From Streptomyces sp. LUP47B (lineage in GTDB: Bacteria > Actinomycetota > Actinomycetes > Streptomycetales > Streptomycetaceae), in assembly GCF_001746295.1 (NCBI RefSeq), contig NZ_MJAH01000001.1, forward strand, positions 1,345,188-1,409,187: 64,000 bases of DNA, in the 5' to 3' direction. The translations under genes were made by a program, and so were the position numbers. Below the pieces are notes generated by a model. The model had not been told where the DNA came from, did no database searches, and saw nothing but the letters and a program-made list of their open reading frames with translations. Position 1 is the first letter of the stretch, and every line of letters starts with the position of its first letter. Below, one piece after another: positions 8,209 through 19,454 of the stretch.

Positions 8209-9081
8209 TCAGTTCCGGCAGGCGCATCCCGCGGCGCTCTTGGCCTCGCCGGCGGTGACGGACGGGTCGGCCGGCTGCTCGGACGGTGTGCAGCAGCCGG
8301 TGACGCCGCAGCAGGAGTCGTCCGTCGCGCCGGTGATGGGCTTGGTGGCGCGGACGATGGCGGAGTGCATGCCGTCGGCGACCTGGTGGGTCGGGACGAT
8401 CTCGATGCCGGTGAAGCCGGCGGCCGCCAGGCCCGCGCGGTACTCGGCGAAGGACAGCGCTCCCGCGATGCAGCCGACGTAGTCCCCCCGTTCCGCCCGC
8501 TGTTCGGTGGTGAGGGTGTCGTCGGCGACGACGTCGGAGACTCCGATGCGGCCGCCGGGCCTGAGGACGCGGAAGGTCTCGGCGAAGACGGCGGACTTGT
8601 CGACCGACAGGTTGATCACGCAGTTCGAGATCACGACGTCGATCGTGTCCGCGGGCAGCGGGATCGCCTCGATGGTGCCCTTGAGGAACTCCACGTTGGT
8701 GGCGCCCGCCTTCGCCGTGTTGGCCAGAGCGAGGGCGAGCATCTCCTCGGTCATGTCCAGCCCGTACGCCTTGCCCCTCGGTCCGACGCGGCGAGCGGAG
8801 AGCAGGACGTCGATGCCGCCGCCGGAACCGAGGTCGAGGACACGCTCACCCTCGCGCAGTTCGGCCACGGCGGTCGGATTGCCGCAGCCGAGGGAGGCGG
8901 CGACGGCGTCGGCCGGCAGGGTGTCGCGCTCGTCCGCGGCGTACAGGGTGGAGCCGAAGTTCTCGTCGACCTCGACCGGCTCGGGCCCGCAACAGGCGCT
9001 GCCACCCTCGGTCACCTGCACGGCCGCGGCCGCATACCGCTGCCGGACGGACTCACGCAGGTCGATGGACTGCTCACTCAT
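8209..9081 (-). CDS. arsM: arsenite S-adenosylmethionine methyltransferase
   Basis: Methylates trivalent arsenic to mono-, di- and trimethyl forms in the cytosol. 290 residues. SAM motif I is VLDLGSGGG (residues 81-89). Cysteines at the four conserved ArsM positions are visible: Cys30/31 (SACCGPE), Cys66 (SLGCGNP), Cys154 (ISNCVINLS) and Cys204 (GDYVGCIAG). The C-terminus adds a Cys-rich tail (DDSCCGVTGCC and GCACRN) that may help capture arsenic. ATG 9081 has a GGAGGAG ribosome site; a longer frame starting at 9102 would run into the operator. The gene is divergent from arsR, and the palindrome at 9095-9122 lies directly upstream. Confidence 0.95.
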   Translation of the reverse strand: MSEQSIDLRESVRQRYAAAAVQVTEGGSACCGPEPVEVDENFGSTLYAADERDTLPADAVAASLGCGNPTAVAELREGERVLDLGSGGGIDVLLSARRVGPRGKAYGLDMTEEMLALALANTAKAGATNVEFLKGTIEAIPLPADTIDVVISNCVINLSVDKSAVFAETFRVLRPGGRIGVSDVVADDTLTTEQRAERGDYVGCIAGALSFAEYRAGLAAAGFTGIEIVPTHQVADGMHSAIVRATKPITGATDDSCCGVTGCCTPSEQPADPSVTAGEAKSAAGCACRN

Positions 9082-9094
9082 GGCCTCTCCTCCT

Positions 9095-9122
9095 GCTTGC
9101 ATTGATGTTCATCGATGCAAGC
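9095..9122. promoter_or_regulatory. ArsR operator candidate between arsM and arsR
   Basis: Long dyad: perfect 8-bp arms GCTTGCAT (9095-9102) and ATGCAAGC (9115-9122). One mismatched pair follows, then further pairing GAT/ATC, around a four-base centre. Its left edge is 13 bases from the arsM start codon, next to the ribosome site, and its right edge is 35 bases before arsR. One bound ArsR dimer could therefore control both directions. Confidence 0.8.
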
Positions 9123-9157
9123 TTGCGCCTTGAATCGAAAGACGTCAACATAGAGGA

Positions 9158-9532
9158 ATGTCGAAACAAGAGCTTGAGGTGATCGGCCAGGAGGCCGCCT
9201 GCTGCCCGGGCCTGTCCGCCGCGCCGCTGGAGGAGGACCAGGCGGCCGAGCTGGCGAAGGTCTTCAAGGCCCTGGGCGACCCGGTCCGGCTGCGCCTGAT
9301 GTCGATGATCGCCTCGCGCGGACAGGGCGGCGAGGTCTGTGTGTGCGAGCTGACCCCGGCCTTCGACCTGTCCCAGCCCACGATCTCCCACCACCTCAAG
9401 CTGCTGCGCCAGGCCGGACTCATCGACTGCGAGCGGCGCGGCACCTGGGTCTACTACTGGGTGCTGCCCGGCGTCCTGGACAGGCTCGGCGCGTTCCTCA
9501 CCACTGCGCAGCCCGTCGGAGCCGGCGCGTGA
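9158..9532 (+). CDS. arsR: arsenic-responsive ArsR-family repressor
   Basis: Winged-helix repressor of 124 residues. The recognition helix region reads FDLSQPTISHHLKLLRQAGL (about residues 68-87). Candidate As(III) ligands are Cys15-Cys16 near the N-terminus and Cys61/Cys63 (EVCVCEL). The CC pair at 15-16 matches the arrangement described for Corynebacterium glutamicum ArsR rather than the E. coli plasmid type. The ATG sits only one base after a GAGG, too close for normal spacing, so a leaderless or weakly initiated message is possible. The next gene's GTG overlaps the stop codon (GTGA), indicating translational coupling. Confidence 0.93.
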   Translation: MSKQELEVIGQEAACCPGLSAAPLEEDQAAELAKVFKALGDPVRLRLMSMIASRGQGGEVCVCELTPAFDLSQPTISHHLKLLRQAGLIDCERRGTWVYYWVLPGVLDRLGAFLTTAQPVGAGA

Positions 9533-10272
9533 GCGCGCCGCTCGGCCGCCGCGTCGCCGCCGAGGCGATCGGCACCGGGCTGCTGGTGACGGTGGTGGTC
9601 GGCTCCGGCATCCAGGCCGTCGAGCTGTCTCACGACGTCGGTGTGCAGCTGCTCGCCAACTCCATCGCCACCGTCTTCGGACTGGGCGTCCTGATCGCCC
9701 TGTTCGGCCCGGTCTCCGGCGCGCATTTCAACCCCGCCGTCACCCTCGCCGCCTGGTTCACCGGCCGCCGCACTCCGGACGGCCTCACGCTGCGGGACGT
9801 CGCCGCCTACACGACCGCCCAGACCGCGGGTGCGATCGGTGGAGCGATCCTGGCCGACGCGATGTTCGCCGAGCCGCTGGTGAAGTTCTCGACCCACGAC
9901 CGGTGGGCCGGCCACCTGTGGCTGGGCGAGGTCGTCGCCACCGCCGGGCTGATCCTGCTGGTCTTCGGCCTCAGCCGGATCGGACGCGCCGCGCTTGCTC
10001 CGGCCGCGGTGGCCTCCTACATCGGCGCCGCCTACTGGTTCACCTCCTCCACCTCCTTCGCGAACCCCGCGGTGACCATCGGCCGGGCCTTCACCGATAC
10101 CTTCGCCGGGATCGCGCCCGCCTCCGTGGCCCCGTTCGTCGCCGCCCAGTTGCTCGGCGCCGTGGTCGGACTCGGTGCGGTGGCCGCCATCCACGGCTCG
10201 GACACCGCTCCCGCACCCGCCCGCCGCGAGGTCGGCGTCCCGAGCGGCGAGCCCGAGCCCGCCACCTCCTGA
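9529..10272 (+). CDS. aqpS: MIP-family aquaglyceroporin, probable arsenite channel
   Basis: 247-residue membrane channel of the aquaporin family with six hydrophobic segments and both Asn-Pro-Ala motifs (HFNPAVTLA near residue 65 and FANPAVTIGRAF near 175). Overlap with arsR and position before arsC match the Sinorhizobium AqpS arrangement, where arsenite leaves through a channel after arsenate reduction. No ArsB or Acr3 pump is seen next to it. The start is GTG 9529, overlapping the arsR stop by four bases; longer frames upstream run through arsR and are not credible. Assignment to arsenite comes from context. Confidence 0.88.
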   Translation: MSAPLGRRVAAEAIGTGLLVTVVVGSGIQAVELSHDVGVQLLANSIATVFGLGVLIALFGPVSGAHFNPAVTLAAWFTGRRTPDGLTLRDVAAYTTAQTAGAIGGAILADAMFAEPLVKFSTHDRWAGHLWLGEVVATAGLILLVFGLSRIGRAALAPAAVASYIGAAYWFTSSTSFANPAVTIGRAFTDTFAGIAPASVAPFVAAQLLGAVVGLGAVAAIHGSDTAPAPARREVGVPSGEPEPATS

Positions 10273-10305
10273 CCACACCCCGCGCTTCCAGAAGGACCAC
10301 CCACC

Positions 10306-10719
10306 ATGAGCACTCCCGCCCCGCGCCCGTCGGTGCTGTTCGTCTGCGTCCACAACGCAGGCCGTTCCCAGATGGCAGCCGCCTTCCTCACCCATCTCGC
10401 AGGCGACCGCATCGAGGTCCGCTCCGCCGGCTCGGCCCCCGCCGACGCCGTCAACCCGGCCGTGGTCGAGGCGATGGGCGAGGCCGGCATCGACATCTCC
10501 GCCCAGACCCCCAAGGTCCTCACGACCGAGGCCGTCCAGGCGTCCGACGTCGTGATCACCATGGGATGCGGCGACGCCTGCCCCGTCTTCCCCGGCAGGC
10601 GGTACCTCGACTGGCAGCTCGACGACCCGGCCGGACAGGGGGTCGAGGCCGTACGCCCCATCCGCGACGCGATCGAGACCCGCGTACGGGAACTGATCTC
10701 GGAGGTGGCGCCCCGCTGA
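10306..10719 (+). CDS. arsC: arsenate reductase, low-molecular-weight phosphatase type
   Basis: Reduces arsenate to arsenite; 137 residues, cytosolic. The phosphate-binding loop CVHNAGRS (Cys14 to Ser21) gives the nucleophilic cysteine, and MGCGDACPVFPG around residues 85-96 contains the further cysteines. The adjacent LDWQLDDPAG motif is typical of this class. In actinobacteria related enzymes use mycothiol or thioredoxin; which applies here cannot be told. ATG 10306 has an AGAAGGA ribosome site. It is 33 bases after aqpS and clearly in the same operon. Confidence 0.95.
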   Translation: MSTPAPRPSVLFVCVHNAGRSQMAAAFLTHLAGDRIEVRSAGSAPADAVNPAVVEAMGEAGIDISAQTPKVLTTEAVQASDVVITMGCGDACPVFPGRRYLDWQLDDPAGQGVEAVRPIRDAIETRVRELISEVAPR

Positions 10720-13107: not shown

Positions 13108-14853
13108 TCAGTCCTCGGCGGGCATGACACGGGTCACCTTGCCCTTGGTGTTCGCCTCCAGGTAGCCGGACTGGCTGTACTCGTTGCTGAGATAGACGGC
13201 CATGCCGAGGGGGGTGTCGAAGACGTCGTTGGGCTGTCTCACCAACACGTAACGGCTGTTCGGATGGTCGACGTTGAGTTTCTTGCGGGCCTCTTCCAGG
13301 AGCGCGGGCACCTTGTCCCAGTTGAAGCCGTCGAGGCGGAAGGGCTTGTCGCCGCCGGACAGGGTGCCCTTGATGATGCCCTTCTCCACGCCCTGCCCGG
13401 GACGGTAGGTGTAGGTGTCGTACTTGCTGTCGCTGCCGTTGACCATCAGCTCCGCCGACACGAAGTCCGGGTAGACGCTGAAGTCGCCGAACCTGTCCCG
13501 GCCCGTCTCCAGCTTCAGCGCCTTGATGGCGGTGCGGATGCCGACGGGGGTGAGCAGGTTCGTGGTCGTCGTGTCCTTCGACTGCTGGACGGCCGGGGCG
13601 GCGACCGGGGAGCCGGTCGATCCGGGGGCCGATGTGACGGAGGAGGGGGCGCCGGTGTCCGCCGCGTCCCCCGATCCGCCCGAGTCCCCTCCGAAGGGCA
13701 GCACCCACCACATCAGGACCAGGGCACCGGCCAGCGAGGTCCCCGAGACGCCGAGCAGGACACGCAGCCCCGGCCGGCTCCTACGTCCCGCTCGCACGGG
13801 CGAGGTCACCGGCTGACCAGGTCCTGCGGCGACGGGCGGCGGCCCGAATCCGGCGGGAACGGCCGCGCCCGCCGGAACCGGGGCGCCGGCGAGGGGAGCC
13901 GTGGGCGAGGCGAAGGCCCCCGGGTACGAAGGGGCCGTACCGGCGGACGGCGGGTTCAGCGGGTACGCGGTGGTGGGCCGGCTCCATGCGGTCACCGGAC
14001 CGGCGGATCCCGACTCGATCTCGGCCAGCCGTCGGTCCAGCACGGCAGACGACGGCCGCGCCGCCGGATCGCGTACGAGCACGCTCATCAGTACGTCACC
14101 CAGCGCACCGCCCCGCACCGGCGGCGGCACGTCGTCGTTGAGGACGGCCGCGAGCGTGGCGAGCGTGCTGGCCCGGCGCAGCGGGTGGTGGCCCTCCACG
14201 GCGGTGTACAGCATCATCGCGAGTGACCACAGGTCGGAGGCGGCGCCGCCCTCGTGGCCCGAGATCCGCTCCGGTGCCATGAAGTCGGGGGTGCCGATGA
14301 TGGAGCCGGTGACGGTGAGGCTGGTCGTCTCGCGGATCGCGGCGATGCCGAAGTCGGTGAGGACGGGGCGCCCGTCGGACTTGAGCAACACGTTGGCGGG
14401 CTTGACGTCCCGGTGCTGGATCCCGGCGTCGTGCGCGGCGGCCAGCGCCGCCAGCACGCCCCGGCCGATCCGCGCCGCCTCGGCCGGCGGCATCGCCCCC
14501 CGGGCCAGCCGGTCGGCGAGCGAGCCGCCACTGACCAGCTCCATGACGATCCACGGGTAGGTGCCGTCGCCGCCGTCGACGATGTGGTGGATGGTGACGA
14601 CGTTGGGATGGTCGATCCGGGCCAGTGCCCGCGCCTCGCGCAGCACCCGCTCTCGCAGCACCCGCGCGCTGTCGGGGTCGTACTCGGCGAGGTCCCGGTC
14701 GGGCGGGCGGACCTCCTTGACCGCGACCATCCTGTGCAGCACCAGGTCCCTGGCCCGCCAGACCGTGCCCATCCCACCGCCGCCGAGACGGGCTTCCAAC
14801 GCGAAGCGCCCGTCGACGACTCGTCTGCCGGGGACTTCGTCTGCCTCACTCAT
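13108..14853 (-). CDS. membrane-anchored Ser/Thr protein kinase (PknB type)
   Basis: Hanks-type kinase of 581 residues. Catalytic motifs: Gly-rich loop LGGGGMGTVWRA, VAVKEV lysine, HRDVKPANVLL catalytic loop, DFGIA, and the APE motif (FMAPER). A Pro/Ala-rich linker (residues 280-370) leads to one transmembrane helix (SLAGALVLMWWVLPF, about 380-395) and an external domain of about 170 residues with no PASTA repeats. The external part (ETGRDRFGDFSVYPDFVSAE) may sense an envelope ligand. ATG 14853 is favoured; an upstream in-frame GTG at 14877 is possible, and neither has a strong ribosome site. Confidence 0.93.
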   Translation of the reverse strand: MSEADEVPGRRVVDGRFALEARLGGGGMGTVWRARDLVLHRMVAVKEVRPPDRDLAEYDPDSARVLRERVLREARALARIDHPNVVTIHHIVDGGDGTYPWIVMELVSGGSLADRLARGAMPPAEAARIGRGVLAALAAAHDAGIQHRDVKPANVLLKSDGRPVLTDFGIAAIRETTSLTVTGSIIGTPDFMAPERISGHEGGAASDLWSLAMMLYTAVEGHHPLRRASTLATLAAVLNDDVPPPVRGGALGDVLMSVLVRDPAARPSSAVLDRRLAEIESGSAGPVTAWSRPTTAYPLNPPSAGTAPSYPGAFASPTAPLAGAPVPAGAAVPAGFGPPPVAAGPGQPVTSPVRAGRRSRPGLRVLLGVSGTSLAGALVLMWWVLPFGGDSGGSGDAADTGAPSSVTSAPGSTGSPVAAPAVQQSKDTTTTNLLTPVGIRTAIKALKLETGRDRFGDFSVYPDFVSAELMVNGSDSKYDTYTYRPGQGVEKGIIKGTLSGGDKPFRLDGFNWDKVPALLEEARKKLNVDHPNSRYVLVRQPNDVFDTPLGMAVYLSNEYSQSGYLEANTKGKVTRVMPAED

Positions 14854-15155
14854 GGGCGGGAGCTTAGTTGCCCCCACCGACAGCGATCGCCGCCGCCTGC
14901 ATCACGGACACGAGGCGGCAGGGTCTCGCAATGACCGTTCAGGCAGCGGACGTTCGTCGACGACGTGCCTCATGCGCGCTCTGACAGCGTGCCACTTGGT
15001 GGCGCCGGCCGCTCCCCGACCGGGCACGCTTCTGCTGTACGGCCGTCGGCCCGGTCCGGCGCTCAGGTCGGCCAGGGCGGACTCGCTGCGCGTGCCCTGC
15101 CCTCGCGCGTTGCCGGGCCCGAGCCGACCAGCGGCCGAGGACGCCGTACGGGAGC
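14854..15155. other. intergenic region upstream of the kinase, no gene seen
   Basis: Around 300 bases between the kinase start and the tatA stop codon. Open frames are overlapping and lack domains or ribosome sites. It must contain the kinase promoter; nothing else stands out. Confidence 0.4.
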
Positions 15156-15428
15156 TCAGTGGGCCGGGTTGCCCTCGGCCGTCGTCGGCTGCGCTGCCGT
15201 GGTCTCTCCCGGGACGGACTGGACGACATGCGGGGCGGACTCAGCCGGGGCGGCGCCGGAGGAGTGCGCGGTGCCGTCCTCCTTCATCGCCTTGGCCTCG
15301 CTCTTGAGGATGCGCATCGACTTGCCGAGCCCGCGGGCGGCCTCGGGCAGCTTCTTCGAGCCGAACAGCAAGATGATCATGATCGCCACGATCAGCAGGT
15401 GCCAGGGCTCCAGTCCGTTGCGCAGCAT
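15156..15428 (-). CDS. tatA: TatA/E-type twin-arginine translocase subunit
   Basis: Membrane protein of 90 residues: a short N-terminus, one transmembrane helix ([13 protein letters not shown]), the FG hinge, then the amphipathic helix [20 protein letters not shown] and an acidic/Ala-rich tail, exactly the TatA layout. Start at ATG 15428 is favoured because the AAGAAGGG ribosome site is nine bases upstream; an earlier ATG (15437) lies directly on that site. The TTGCGCAA box at 15448-15475 lies 20-47 bases upstream, where a promoter or operator would be. It may be an extra copy besides a core tatAC locus. Confidence 0.92.
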
Positions 15429-15447
15429 GCCGCACATCCCTTCTTAT

Positions 15448-15475
15448 GGTTGCTAGCTTGCGCAACTGTACAACC
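15448..15475. promoter_or_regulatory. TTGCGCAA box A, upstream of tatA
   Basis: Symmetric 28-base element GGTTG-N5-TTGCGCAA-N5-CAACC. Arms and core are all perfect inverted repeats. It sits between the LCP gene stop (15494) and the tatA start (15428). The same spacing recurs upstream of the LCP gene, and partial copies flank the small ArsR gene. Confidence 0.7.
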
Positions 15476-15493
15476 ACAGGCTTCGTGCCCGCC

Positions 15494-17200
15494 TCAGTCG
15501 TCGGAGTCCTTCTTGTTGGGCGCCGCCGCGTACGCCTGCTCCGGTGTCATCGGGACCCCGTTGAGGGAGACCGTCTTGTAGGGGCTGACCTTGGCGCATT
15601 TCTTGGCCTGGTCGGCGGTCTGGGCCTGCGCGTTGGAGACCGCGGCCTTCGTGTCGGCGGGCGCCGGCGAGGACGAACCGCCCGGAAAGGTGGTGCCGCT
15701 CGTCCAGTCGCTGCCGATCACCAGGGTCAGACCGGTGCCGGTGCCCTCCTCGAGGTGCGAGCTGGACAGCCCGAGCGCCTTGGCGGCCGTCTGCGCCCGG
15801 GCCTTCTGCCCGGTGCCGTAGGTGAGGGTGGTGGTGGTCGCCGGGCTCGGCGCGTTGGCGGTGGTCGTCGCGGAGCTGAAGCCCTGGCCGGTGAGCGCGT
15901 TCGCGATCGCGGAGGCGCGGCCGGTGATCTCGGTGCCGTTCTCGACGGTCACGGCGATCTCGGAGGCGGGTACCGCCGAGGCCGTGGCCGTCGCGGAGGC
16001 CGCCGTGGACTTCTTTCCGGAGCCGGTGCTCAGGGACTGGTCGTCGGCGATGCTGGAGAAGAGGGCCTTGGCACCCGCGCCCACCACGACCCGGTTGGTG
16101 TCGTTCGGATCGGCGCCGGTCTGCATCGTGGTGAAGGTCATCCGCTTGGTGGGGACCTTGTTCACGTCGGCCGCGAGCCCGATCAGCTTCTTGACGCTGC
16201 CGAGACCGTCGTCCACGGTGAGCGCCTTGGTGGCGGCGTCGGCGAGGGCGTAGACCGCGGTGGGGTCGGTGAGCGTGCCCGCGCTCTTGAACTTCCGGAT
16301 CATCGCGCTGAGGAAGATGTGCTGGGAGACCGTGCGGCCGAGGTCGCTGCCGTCCCCGAAGCCGTGGCGGGAGCGGACGAACTCCAGGGCCGCCTCTCCC
16401 TTGAGGGTGTGGGAGCCCATGGAGAGTTTCAGGTGCGAGTAGGTGTCGTACACGTTGTGGTCGACGCACACGGAGACACCCCCGACGGCGTCGGACATCT
16501 TGACCACGCCGGAGAAGTCGAGCTTGACGAAGTGGTCGATGGGGATTCCGGTGAGTTGGTGGATCGTGGCGACCTGGCAGGCGGGACCGTACCGGAGGGC
16601 GCTGTTGATCTGGCCGTAGTAGCCGGACGTGGACTGGCCGCTCGCGGTGTCCTTGCAGGCCGGGACGTCGACCATGGTGTCGCGGGGGATGCTCATGACG
16701 GTGGCGTTGGAGCGGTCGGCGGATATGTGCACCACCATCTGTACGTCCGCGTTGCCGTTTCCGGTCTGCACGCCGGTCTGGGAGCAGCCGCCGCCCAGCT
16801 TGCAGTCCGCCTTGCTGGTCCGGCCGTCCGAGCCCATGACCAGGATGTTGATCGGGGTGCGACCGAACGCGTCAGTCTTCTCCGAACCACCCTTGCCGTC
16901 GAGCGACACACTGTTGATGTTGCCGTTGAGGTGCTGGTAGAACCACCATCCGGCACCGGCCGTGGCCAGGACGAGGACCGCCATACACATCCCGACGATC
17001 TTCAGTACCCGCCTGCCGCGCCGCACCGGCCGGGCCCGGCGACGCGAGCGCTTGCCACCGTGCGAGCGGGCCGCGGCCCGCGTCGCGGCCCGGCCTCCGG
17101 GCCGAGGCGCACCGCCGGGCTCGTCCACCCGCTGCTCCGGCACCCGGCCGGTGCGGCTGCGCGTGGCCTGACCGCCCGGGCCGTCCCACGGGTCGCTCAT
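15494..17200 (-). CDS. LytR-CpsA-Psr (LCP) family cell-wall glycopolymer ligase with LytR_C domain
   Basis: 568-residue membrane enzyme that probably attaches anionic polymers to peptidoglycan at the outer membrane face. A long basic cytoplasmic tail (residues 1-65, rich in Arg and Gly) precedes one transmembrane helix (IVGMCMAVLVLATAGAGWWF, about 68-87). The LCP catalytic domain follows with NILVMGSDGR, the phosphate-binding arginines of MSIPRDTMVDVP, YGQINSA and FVRSRHGFGDGSDLGR. A Ser/Thr/Ala-rich segment links to a C-terminal LytR_C domain (AVTVENGTEITGRASAIANAL). The second TTGCGCAA box lies about 105-130 bases upstream of the ATG. Confidence 0.93.
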   Translation of the reverse strand: MSDPWDGPGGQATRSRTGRVPEQRVDEPGGAPRPGGRAATRAAARSHGGKRSRRRARPVRRGRRVLKIVGMCMAVLVLATAGAGWWFYQHLNGNINSVSLDGKGGSEKTDAFGRTPINILVMGSDGRTSKADCKLGGGCSQTGVQTGNGNADVQMVVHISADRSNATVMSIPRDTMVDVPACKDTASGQSTSGYYGQINSALRYGPACQVATIHQLTGIPIDHFVKLDFSGVVKMSDAVGGVSVCVDHNVYDTYSHLKLSMGSHTLKGEAALEFVRSRHGFGDGSDLGRTVSQHIFLSAMIRKFKSAGTLTDPTAVYALADAATKALTVDDGLGSVKKLIGLAADVNKVPTKRMTFTTMQTGADPNDTNRVVVGAGAKALFSSIADDQSLSTGSGKKSTAASATATASAVPASEIAVTVENGTEITGRASAIANALTGQGFSSATTTANAPSPATTTTLTYGTGQKARAQTAAKALGLSSSHLEEGTGTGLTLVIGSDWTSGTTFPGGSSSPAPADTKAAVSNAQAQTADQAKKCAKVSPYKTVSLNGVPMTPEQAYAAAPNKKDSDD

Positions 17201-17303
17201 CTACCACTCCAGGAAACGGTCGAGCCTCTCAGGCCGGGCCATGGGGTGGGCGGCCGGGCAAGCGCGGCGGTGTACAGGCAGGCCAAGCGGGAACCTCGGC
17301 CTG

Positions 17304-17331
17304 GGTTGCGTAGTTGCGCAATCTAACAAAC
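17304..17331. promoter_or_regulatory. TTGCGCAA box B, upstream of the LCP gene
   Basis: GGTTG-N5-TTGCGCAA-N5-CAAAC, the same architecture as box A with one base different in the right arm. It lies in the 270-base gap between the LCP start (17200) and the 3' end of the ArsR-family gene (17471). Confidence 0.65.
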
Positions 17332-17470
17332 CCCTGGCCCCGCCAGCACGGAGCCCGCCGCATTTCACAGGTGAGAGATCTCATGAGGGAACGCGGCAAC
17401 CTCGCGGACACATTTGCCTTCACCTACGGCGCTTTCCGCACCCCCGACAGCTACCTGGCACAGGGGTGGA

Positions 17471-17827
17471 TCAAGGCCTGCGTGAGACGTTACCGCGCGC
17501 CGCGGCCGGGGCTGTACGGGCCGTGAGCTGGCCGACCATGACGCGGACCACCGTCACGATGTCGGGGTCGTCGACGTAGTAGACCTGCCGTCGGCCCTCA
17601 CGGCGGGAGCGGACGAGCCCGGCGAGTTTCAGCTTGGCCAGGTGCTGGCTGACCGCGGGCAGCGCGCCGCCGACCCGGTCGGCGAGGTGGGTGACATCGC
17701 TCTCGCCCTGGGACAGCGCCCACATGATGTGCAGCCGGGCGGCGGACGCGAGGAGGCCGAACGCGGCGGCCGCCTCCGTCAGCACGTCGGCGGACGGATC
17801 CTCCGAACCACCGGCGAATGTCGCCAC
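17471..17827 (-). CDS. small ArsR/SmtB-family regulator lacking visible metal ligands
   Basis: Winged-helix repressor of about 118 residues from GTG 17827, which has a GGAGGGG ribosome site; the frame continues to 17854. Domain order is helices ending in HIMWALSQGE, then the recognition region LPAVSQHLAKLKLAGLVRSR, then the beta wing GRRQVYYVDDPDIV. No cysteines are present and the C-terminal helix lacks the His/Asp pattern of SmtB/CzrA/NmtR-type metal sensors, so it probably does not sense metal by that site. TTGCGCAA boxes lie about 100 and 190 bases upstream and around neighbouring genes, making it the obvious candidate for the box-binding protein. That link is inference. Confidence 0.85.
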   Translation of the reverse strand: MATFAGGSEDPSADVLTEAAAAFGLLASAARLHIMWALSQGESDVTHLADRVGGALPAVSQHLAKLKLAGLVRSRREGRRQVYYVDDPDIVTVVRVMVGQLTARTAPAAARGNVSRRP

Positions 17828-17926
17828 GATCCCCTCCCGTCCCCGACCGGTCACTGTCGACGCACGTGTGCTGTCTCAGTGTAAGGGCGGCGGGACGCGG
17901 TCCACGAGACCGCCTCCGATTCATTG

Positions 17927-17945
17927 ATTGCGCAATGTAATAAGT
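17927..17945. promoter_or_regulatory. TTGCGCAA box C, upstream of the ArsR-family gene
   Basis: Ten-base palindrome ATTGCGCAAT (17927-17936). The outer TTG and CAA triplets of boxes A and B are each matched at only two of three bases here (TTC, TAA), at the same spacing. It sits in the divergent region between the regulator and the YeaQ-like gene. Confidence 0.55.
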
Positions 17946-18017
17946 GTGTGAAAGAACATCGACGACTTGTCACCAGGCACGGCAGACGTCTTTTCTCCCT
18001 CGCCTCAGTCCTTAAGG

Positions 18018-18035
18018 TTGCGCAATCAGGCAACT
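18018..18035. promoter_or_regulatory. TTGCGCAA box D, upstream of YeaQ/GlsB-like gene
   Basis: TTGCGCAA-N5-CAACT: core plus right arm match boxes A and B, while the left arm is absent. It is 58-75 bases upstream of the GTG of the YeaQ-like gene, a plausible promoter position. Confidence 0.55.
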
Positions 18036-18092
18036 CGAAGTCTCGGATCCGGCGGACTTTCCCCGGCCCCGATCCAACTGGAGGACTACAAC

Positions 18093-18359
18093 GTGGGCAT
18101 CATCGGCTGGATCATCCTGGGTCTGCTCGCCGGAGCCATCGCCAAGATCCTGCTGCCGGGCCGCGACCCGGGCGGCCTGATCGGCACCACCCTCATCGGG
18201 GTCGCGGGAGCGTTCGTCGGCGGATGGCTCTCCTCCCGCTTCCTCGACCGCCCGGTGGAGAGTCACTTCTTCGACCTCTACACCTGGGGCGCGGCCATCG
18301 GCGGCTCCCTGGTGCTCCTGATCGGCTATCGCCTGCTGTTCGGAAACTCGCGGAAGTGA
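18093..18359 (+). CDS. YeaQ/YmgE/GlsB-family membrane protein
   Basis: 88-residue membrane protein of the family once called transglycosylase-associated, now usually listed as a stress-response family. Three hydrophobic segments are visible: IGWIILGLLAGAIAKIL, GLIGTTLIGVAGAFVGGWL and GAAIGGSLVLLIGYRLLF, with the typical LLPGRDPGGL motif after the first. Biochemical function is unknown; it may affect envelope properties. GTG 18093 is chosen for its GGAGGAC ribosome site six bases upstream. A second member of the family lies at 19191-19454. Confidence 0.88.
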   Translation: MGIIGWIILGLLAGAIAKILLPGRDPGGLIGTTLIGVAGAFVGGWLSSRFLDRPVESHFFDLYTWGAAIGGSLVLLIGYRLLFGNSRK

Positions 18360-19190: not shown

Positions 19191-19454
19191 ATGGAGATCT
19201 CAGGCGTGATCAGCGCGATTGTCATCGGCATCGTGATCGGTGTCCTCGGCCGGCTCGTGGTCCCCGGGCGCCAGCACATCGGCATGCTGTGGACGATCCT
19301 GATCGGCATCGTCGCCGCCTTCATCGGCACGGGCATCGCGGCAGGCCTCGATGTCGCCGACACCAAGGGCGTCGACTGGGTCGAGTGGCTGATCCAGATC
19401 GCCGTGGCCGCGCTCGGGGTGGCCGCGCTCAGCAAGGTGAAGGTGCGCCACTGA
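19191..19454 (+). CDS. second YeaQ/YmgE/GlsB-family membrane protein
   Basis: 87-residue membrane protein from the same family as the one at 18093-18359. Three hydrophobic segments (ISAIVIGIVIGVLGRLVV, MLWTILIGIVAAFIGTGIAA, WLIQIAVAALGVAALS) and the LVVPGRQ motif in the usual place. It contains an acidic insertion (DVADTKGVDW) before the last helix. ATG 19191 is preceded by a modest GGGG ribosome site. No TTGCGCAA box is seen in front of this copy. Confidence 0.85.
   Translation: MEISGVISAIVIGIVIGVLGRLVVPGRQHIGMLWTILIGIVAAFIGTGIAAGLDVADTKGVDWVEWLIQIAVAALGVAALSKVKVRH

Follow-up and report, generated by a model that had tools for sequence, protein, structure and literature searches.

SqrR and BigR are persulfide sensors which have two conserved sensing cysteines. 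SmtB holds zinc through the ligands D104, H106, H117 and E120. The genes encoding CmtR and NmtR are physically linked to a P-type ATPase gene, which is a parallel to the pairing of arsR and mgtA described below. Streptomyces has SrnR, an ArsR-family protein which is nickel-related. Here, these systems are compared with a locus of Streptomyces sp. LUP47B that encodes another ArsR-family protein (17471-17854) and contains four copies of a palindromic box, TTGCGCAA. The locus is found in a window of 64,000 nucleotides (contig NZ_MJAH01000001.1, positions 1,345,188 to 1,409,187 of the forward strand); coordinates are those of this window unless another locus is named. The boxes are quite probably the operators of a Streptomyces regulon under the ArsR-like protein, which would act as a repressor of envelope genes. 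The clustering and conservation of the boxes are real; the ArsR-like protein is the likely binder, and repression is the likely mode.

The protein belongs to the ArsR/SmtB family (PF01022, 36.8 bits with a cut-off of 22; NF033788, 77 bits with a cut-off of 55), and its AlphaFold model has a winged-helix fold with a mean pLDDT (predicted local distance difference test) of 79.6. Across 70 orthologues the recognition-helix region, SQHL.KL.LAGLV, hardly varies. SqrR is the closest solved relative by sequence (E 1.4e-13), with 40% identity over 83 residues in a structural alignment, and the likeness to SqrR and BigR lies in the repressor-type winged helix. Unlike SqrR and BigR, the protein has no conserved cysteines, the arms of its candidate box read TTGC/GCAA, and its candidate targets are envelope genes; it scores only 39.8 bits against the BigR model NF040642 (cut-off 155). 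With SmtB, CzrA, NmtR and CmtR it shares the fold and the DNA-binding region: the family profile picks up SmtB at E 2.3e-12, and CzrA aligns structurally at a Z of about 12. It falls well below the cut-off of the equivalog for the Cd/Pb sensor CmtR, NF047906 (36 bits; cut-off 150). SrnR belongs to the same family and has a solved structure (7p6f) but is distant in sequence (E 7.6e-7). MarR-family chains also rank high in the structure comparison, because the winged-helix fold is shared. In PMC9774250 the deduced SqrR operator is ATTC-N8-GAAT; the TTGC-N8-GCAA box may correspond to it, as it has the same 4-8-4 inverted-repeat geometry, and the likeness is one of geometry alone.

An earlier note on this DNA had reported four palindromes in 2.6 kb around genes for envelope functions and judged the recurrence unlikely to be due to chance. 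Both points hold: exact TTGCGCAA is found at 15458, 17314, 17928 and 18018, all within 2.6 kb and nowhere else in the window, and the Poisson probability of at least four copies within 2568 bp is about 8e-10. The features of the locus are as follows.

15156-15437, minus strand: TatA-like protein of 93 amino acids (PF02416, 55.7 bits; NF001854, 90.5 bits, cut-off 72)
15450-15473: box 1, candidate operator of the tatA-like gene, perfect 24-bp form
15465-15470, minus strand: predicted -10 TACAGT of the tatA-like promoter, abutting TGCGCAA; phase conserved in relatives
15494-17200, minus strand: LCP (LytR-CpsA-Psr) glycopolymer transferase with a LytR_C domain (PF03816, 152.6 bits; PF13399, 56.3 bits; TIGR00350, 135.4 bits)
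17306-17329: box 2, candidate operator of the LCP gene, perfect 24-bp form
17320-17325, minus strand: predicted -10 TAGATT of the LCP promoter, overlapping box 2; phase conserved in relatives
17471-17854, minus strand: ArsR-family regulator, candidate box-binding repressor (PF01022, NF033788, modelled winged-helix fold)
17878-17883, minus strand: putative -10 TACACT of a second, boxless arsR promoter; similar hexamer in relatives, by eye
17920-17943: box 3, before arsR; outer arms with 2 mismatches
17934-17939, minus strand: predicted -10 TACATT of the putative box-controlled arsR promoter
18010-18033: box 4, candidate yeaQ operator; core at 18018-18025, 3 mismatches
18013-18018, plus strand: predicted -10 TAAGGT of the yeaQ promoter; phase conserved in relatives
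18093-18359, plus strand: YeaQ/GlsB-type transglycosylase-associated membrane protein of 88 amino acids (PF04226, 36.4 bits, cut-off 25.3)

The exactness of the core matters, because with one mismatch TTGCGCAA is found 12 times in the window against 11.4 in shuffles, which is no excess. The genome as a whole (G000, 10,998,901 bases) has 51 copies of the 8-mer, compared with 93 of a reversed control. Over the 14 specified bases, the extended motif TTG-N5-TTGCGCAA-N5-CAA has no mismatch at 15450 on the tatA side and none at 17306 on the lcp side, so that the perfect or near-perfect copies reported before these two genes are both perfect; there are 2 mismatches at 17920 and 3 at 18010. The latter pair had been described as partial copies, which is right for the outer arms and wrong for the cores, all four of which are perfect. 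They had also been placed on both sides of the arsR/yeaQ pair; in fact both sit between the two genes, one per promoter. Allowing up to 3 mismatches, the extended motif occurs five times in the window against a mean of 0.42 in shuffles, the fifth match (10918) being weak, with 3 mismatches. Genome-wide, 53 places are found at this tolerance compared with 88 for the reversed control, and thus only the near-perfect extended form is informative. Within the 24 bp of a full box one can read two sites like TTGC-N8-GCAA that overlap, the second shifted by 8 bp from the first; box 4 retains one of the two complete (18018-18033). A position matrix built from perfect boxes alone proved too strict for the weak sites upstream of arsR and is left out of the evidence.

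Fifty of the 51 genomic TTGCGCAA places were listed and viewed. Thirty-three of these fall inside roughly called open reading frames (ORFs), a count in which box 4 is wrongly included. Two places (L011 and L026) were set aside by eye as resembling other palindromes, of the GTAAACG type. Two TTGCGCAA belong to a paralogous arsR-mgtA locus (L123) of this genome, where mgtA ends and beyond it.

The earlier note had proposed a local regulon, to be checked by a genome-wide motif scan and by conservation upstream of orthologues. The scan finds the perfect extended form at two places only, both in the window locus, and the near-perfect motif is not common at random positions. Relatives keep it in front of orthologous genes, and across the genus it goes together with the ArsR-like protein; these results support the proposal. 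A perfect box is present in 98 of 295 Streptomyces genomes, and the reversed control in one. With an ArsR orthologue defined as the best match at E <= 1e-30, 105 of these genomes have one; both box and arsR are found in 96, arsR only in 9, box only in 2 and neither in 188 (Fisher p about 4e-64, phylogeny ignored; the presence lists were copied by eye). Six of the nine arsR-only genomes (G019, G047, G175, G191, G264 and G265) have boxes with 1-2 mismatches within about 6 kb of arsR. An order-level sample, which overlaps the genus sample, gives a similar picture (box in 92 of 293 genomes, reversed control in one), and the box is absent from all 20 genomes examined from eight other genera. A tatA box form with 20 specified bases occurs in at least 120 stretches of the genome collection; all 80 among the matches listed are from Streptomyces. 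In a footprint of the two-box intergenic region (17 sequences, some redundant) the boxes are kept and the surroundings have diverged. Boxes in relatives stay beside the same genes despite divergent flanks, and the gene order of one locus (L194) is that of the window. The arsR-less comparison set (28 genomes without arsR or a perfect box, plus G168 and G221) has mostly apparent housekeeping TatA proteins. The EPWHL type of TatA is boxless in G064 and G012 and boxed in G168; an EPWHL protein in G080 adjoins a TatC-like gene and was left out of the count.

Box placement was counted in 49 arsR-centred loci of relatives (L064-L092 and L123-L142, the latter picked after genomes had been listed by perfect box), using distinct upstreams. 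Boxes are found upstream of the tatA-like gene in 12/13, of lcp in 24/25 and of yeaQ in 12/13, and they overlap the predicted -10/+1 region of all three. The phase is fixed: a TAnnnT hexamer abuts TGCGCAA in all 12 tatA boxes (none in the neighbouring phase) and in all 12 yeaQ boxes (none in the other phase), and lcp boxes have TAnnTT one base closer in 23 of 24 (again none in the other phase). By chance, either phase would be expected in about 4% of cases. Among loci retrieved with the perfect box, a pattern which leaves the hexamer bases free, the phase is kept in 26/28 (tatA) and 20/23 (lcp). Where tatA and lcp are divergent, a single palindrome bears both -10s. Transcription is predicted to start inside the box; RNA polymerase and a bound protein would therefore compete. 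A larger set gives 101/105 for tatA, 77/89 for lcp, 18/19 for yeaQ and 13/26 and 7/17 for terD, but these rates are inflated because loci fetched for holding a box are included; 80 tatA loci were fetched with TACAGT in the pattern, which is circular for tatA, and one oriented count was preselected for an upstream TA.

The outer right arm, TTGC-N8-[GA]CAA, is present in every tatA (12/12), lcp (24/24) and yeaQ (12/12) box of the arsR-centred loci, is rare at arsR boxes (1/11), and is found at none of the terD boxes (0/6). Only 11 of 41 arsR upstreams have a box; a boxless TACACT/TAGACT-like hexamer can be seen by eye in most of the orthologue upstreams printed. The window arsR carries both kinds of promoter. 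Its box 3 is preserved as TTATTACATTGCGCAA in the six near relatives shown, and this position is on the terD side in others. The window arsR box would thus occupy the place of the terD-side box, perhaps as a remnant after loss of terD.

In the mechanism proposed, an ArsR dimer would bind the TTGC-N8-GCAA sites of the box. Bound over the -10/+1 region of the tatA-like, lcp, yeaQ and one of the arsR promoters, it would block RNA polymerase; a signal would release the dimer and turn the envelope gene set on. We infer not only binding and repression but also a signal tied to Mg2+ or other divalent cations, or to the state of the envelope. In relatives the regulon would extend to the promoters of terD and of an ORF of 76 amino acids.

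These partner genes are found around arsR in other Streptomyces; the earlier note names neither them nor the MgtA-type ATPase, nor the overlap of boxes with promoters. Of 57 loci, some of them redundant, 42 have an MgtA-type ATPase gene behind arsR, in the same orientation and no more than 1.8 kb away; arsR and this Mg2+ P-type ATPase gene probably form an operon in relatives. Two MgtA members were scanned with the Mg2+-ATPase equivalog TIGR01524 (cut-off 610.75), and both exceed it: the copy at L123 in the same genome (665.6 bits) and that at L128 (703.9 bits). The linked ATPase is therefore of the Mg2+ class, unlike the heavy-metal class of metal-sensing ArsR systems. Across 101 partly redundant loci ArsR is found in 58, MgtA in 56 and LCP in 52; TatA is found in 86, a count determined by the search pattern. 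The 22 families seen most often at these loci were named partly by Pfam and partly by eye, and ArsR is the sole transcription regulator recognised among them, in agreement with the claim that it is the only regulator of the region.

The likeness to Ter (TerB/TerD) stress sets lies in the boxed terD genes and in TerB, whose gene adjoins arsR in some relatives; the window locus itself showed no ter gene. The two types of terD in the arsR-centred loci have boxes in 2/4 and 4/7 upstreams. Most of the boxed terD sequences printed (e.g. L095, L104, L112, L140, L141 and L213) read box-N3/4-GGGAACC-N~16-CGTT, the latter part of which is an extracytoplasmic function (ECF)-like promoter. An ECF sigma factor and the ArsR regulon are possibly linked at terD promoters. 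The 76-amino-acid ORF family has a box in 18/19 (e.g. L134, L179, L217 and L228), with TAAA(C/G)T 3-4 nt further on, or TAAA where the view ended at the predicted start. In these loci the start codon comes about 6 nt after TAAACT, which suggests a leaderless mRNA; the one member scanned has no Pfam match.

Other explanations of the boxes have been considered. Chance clustering of an 8-mer, or functionless local copies of a repeat, would fit with the lack of any excess of the one-mismatch form over shuffles of the window, but the clustering probability of the exact form and the conservation in relatives with divergent flanks refute it, and it retains next to no probability. The box could instead be part of a sigma-factor promoter class, as an extended -10 or an initiator, and the hexamer at a fixed phase in tatA, lcp and yeaQ is what such a motif would give. 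The phase nevertheless differs by one base between tatA/yeaQ and lcp, and the box stands 3-4 nt upstream of TAAA(C/G)T in the 76-amino-acid ORF family and upstream of the ECF-like promoter in terD. This variety of geometries favours an independent DNA-binding protein; moreover, the box is palindromic and its presence tracks arsR. A sigma-factor motif is accordingly improbable, somewhat more so than the following two alternatives, which seem to us equally unlikely.

One is that the boxes serve some other regulator, whose gene lies elsewhere, and that arsR is among its targets. Box 3 upstream of the window arsR is in keeping with this, as are the boxes in two genomes in which arsR was not detected; against it, box and arsR co-vary, 30 of the 41 arsR upstreams are boxless although 96 of 105 arsR genomes hold boxes, and no further transcription regulator was recognised in the 22 families. 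The other is that the ArsR-like protein works as an activator, whether at every box or at some of them. Most of the ArsR-family members characterised are repressors, and the tatA, lcp and yeaQ boxes cover the predicted -10/+1, where binding normally blocks initiation; only the terD box, just upstream of a -35-like element, has a position compatible with activation. The preferred reading, repression by the ArsR-like protein, has several points that weigh against it. Autoregulation of arsR is not general, because the 30 boxless upstreams are the majority. Three genomes (G028, G194 and G197) have arsR and no close box, and two (G168 and G221) have a perfect box and no arsR orthologue was found in them; the G168 assembly is 95% complete and 6% contaminated. 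Co-occurrence by itself cannot prove the binder, because arsR, tatA-like genes and boxes tend to be gained and lost together. The exact box is missing from about half of the terD upstreams. The window arsR has no mgtA beside it, though the paralogous locus L123 does; mgtA is tied to the regulon by its linkage to arsR, and its control by a box is a candidate only.

The earlier note had remarked that the ArsR-like protein lacks canonical metal ligands, and this was confirmed. Cysteine is absent from the protein and from 60 of the 70 sequences in the orthologue alignment, and the SmtB alpha-5 positions D104, H106, H117 and E120 align with D96, D98, Q109 and the variable residue 112. A soft-metal site is not supported, because cysteine is mostly absent and both SmtB histidines are replaced (by D98 and Q109). 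An oxygen-rich site able to hold Mg2+ is possible, and the genes involved point to a response to the state of divalent cations or of the envelope. A more specific idea, that the protein reads a hard cation (Mg2+ or similar) through an all-oxygen alpha-5 site (D96, D98, Q109) and so co-adjusts glycopolymer attachment, export and TerD/MgtA, is speculative and rather doubtful. If true, Streptomyces would have a magnesium-envelope switch that is neither of the riboswitch nor of the PhoPQ type.

A search of the literature by title, with most subscription papers outside it, found no description of such a regulon and no operator with TTGCGCAA in Streptomyces; the regulon is apparently undescribed so far. 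It brings an ArsR protein and a Mg2+ pump together with LCP, TatA-like, YeaQ and TerD proteins and the 76-amino-acid ORF, and is an operator with a small regulon defined from sequence alone in about a third of the Streptomyces sampled. As the candidate sites and target promoters are precise, what an ArsR protein lacking canonical metal ligands responds to can be tested directly.

Some further genes of this genome were noted. A separate arsenic-type gene set (8209-10719, by eye) has an ArsM-like methyltransferase, a Cys-containing ArsR, a MIP/aquaporin-like protein and an ArsC-like protein, and no TTGCGCAA box was found in it. The Cys-containing ArsR (9158-9532) was considered as a box binder and rejected, there being no box near it. 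A second YeaQ-like small membrane protein (19191-19454; NF007771, E 4.5e-6, below cut-off) has no box. A serine/threonine-kinase-like gene (13108-14877, labelled by eye) adjoins tatA and is found in 7 of the 101 loci. Beside arsR-mgtA at L123 (10858-13311 of that locus, contig C7 of the same genome) are a 108-amino-acid ORF, a protein with a type VII secretion system (T7SS) signal and an Ntox24 domain, and a 167-amino-acid ORF; this stretch takes the place of the tatA of several relatives.

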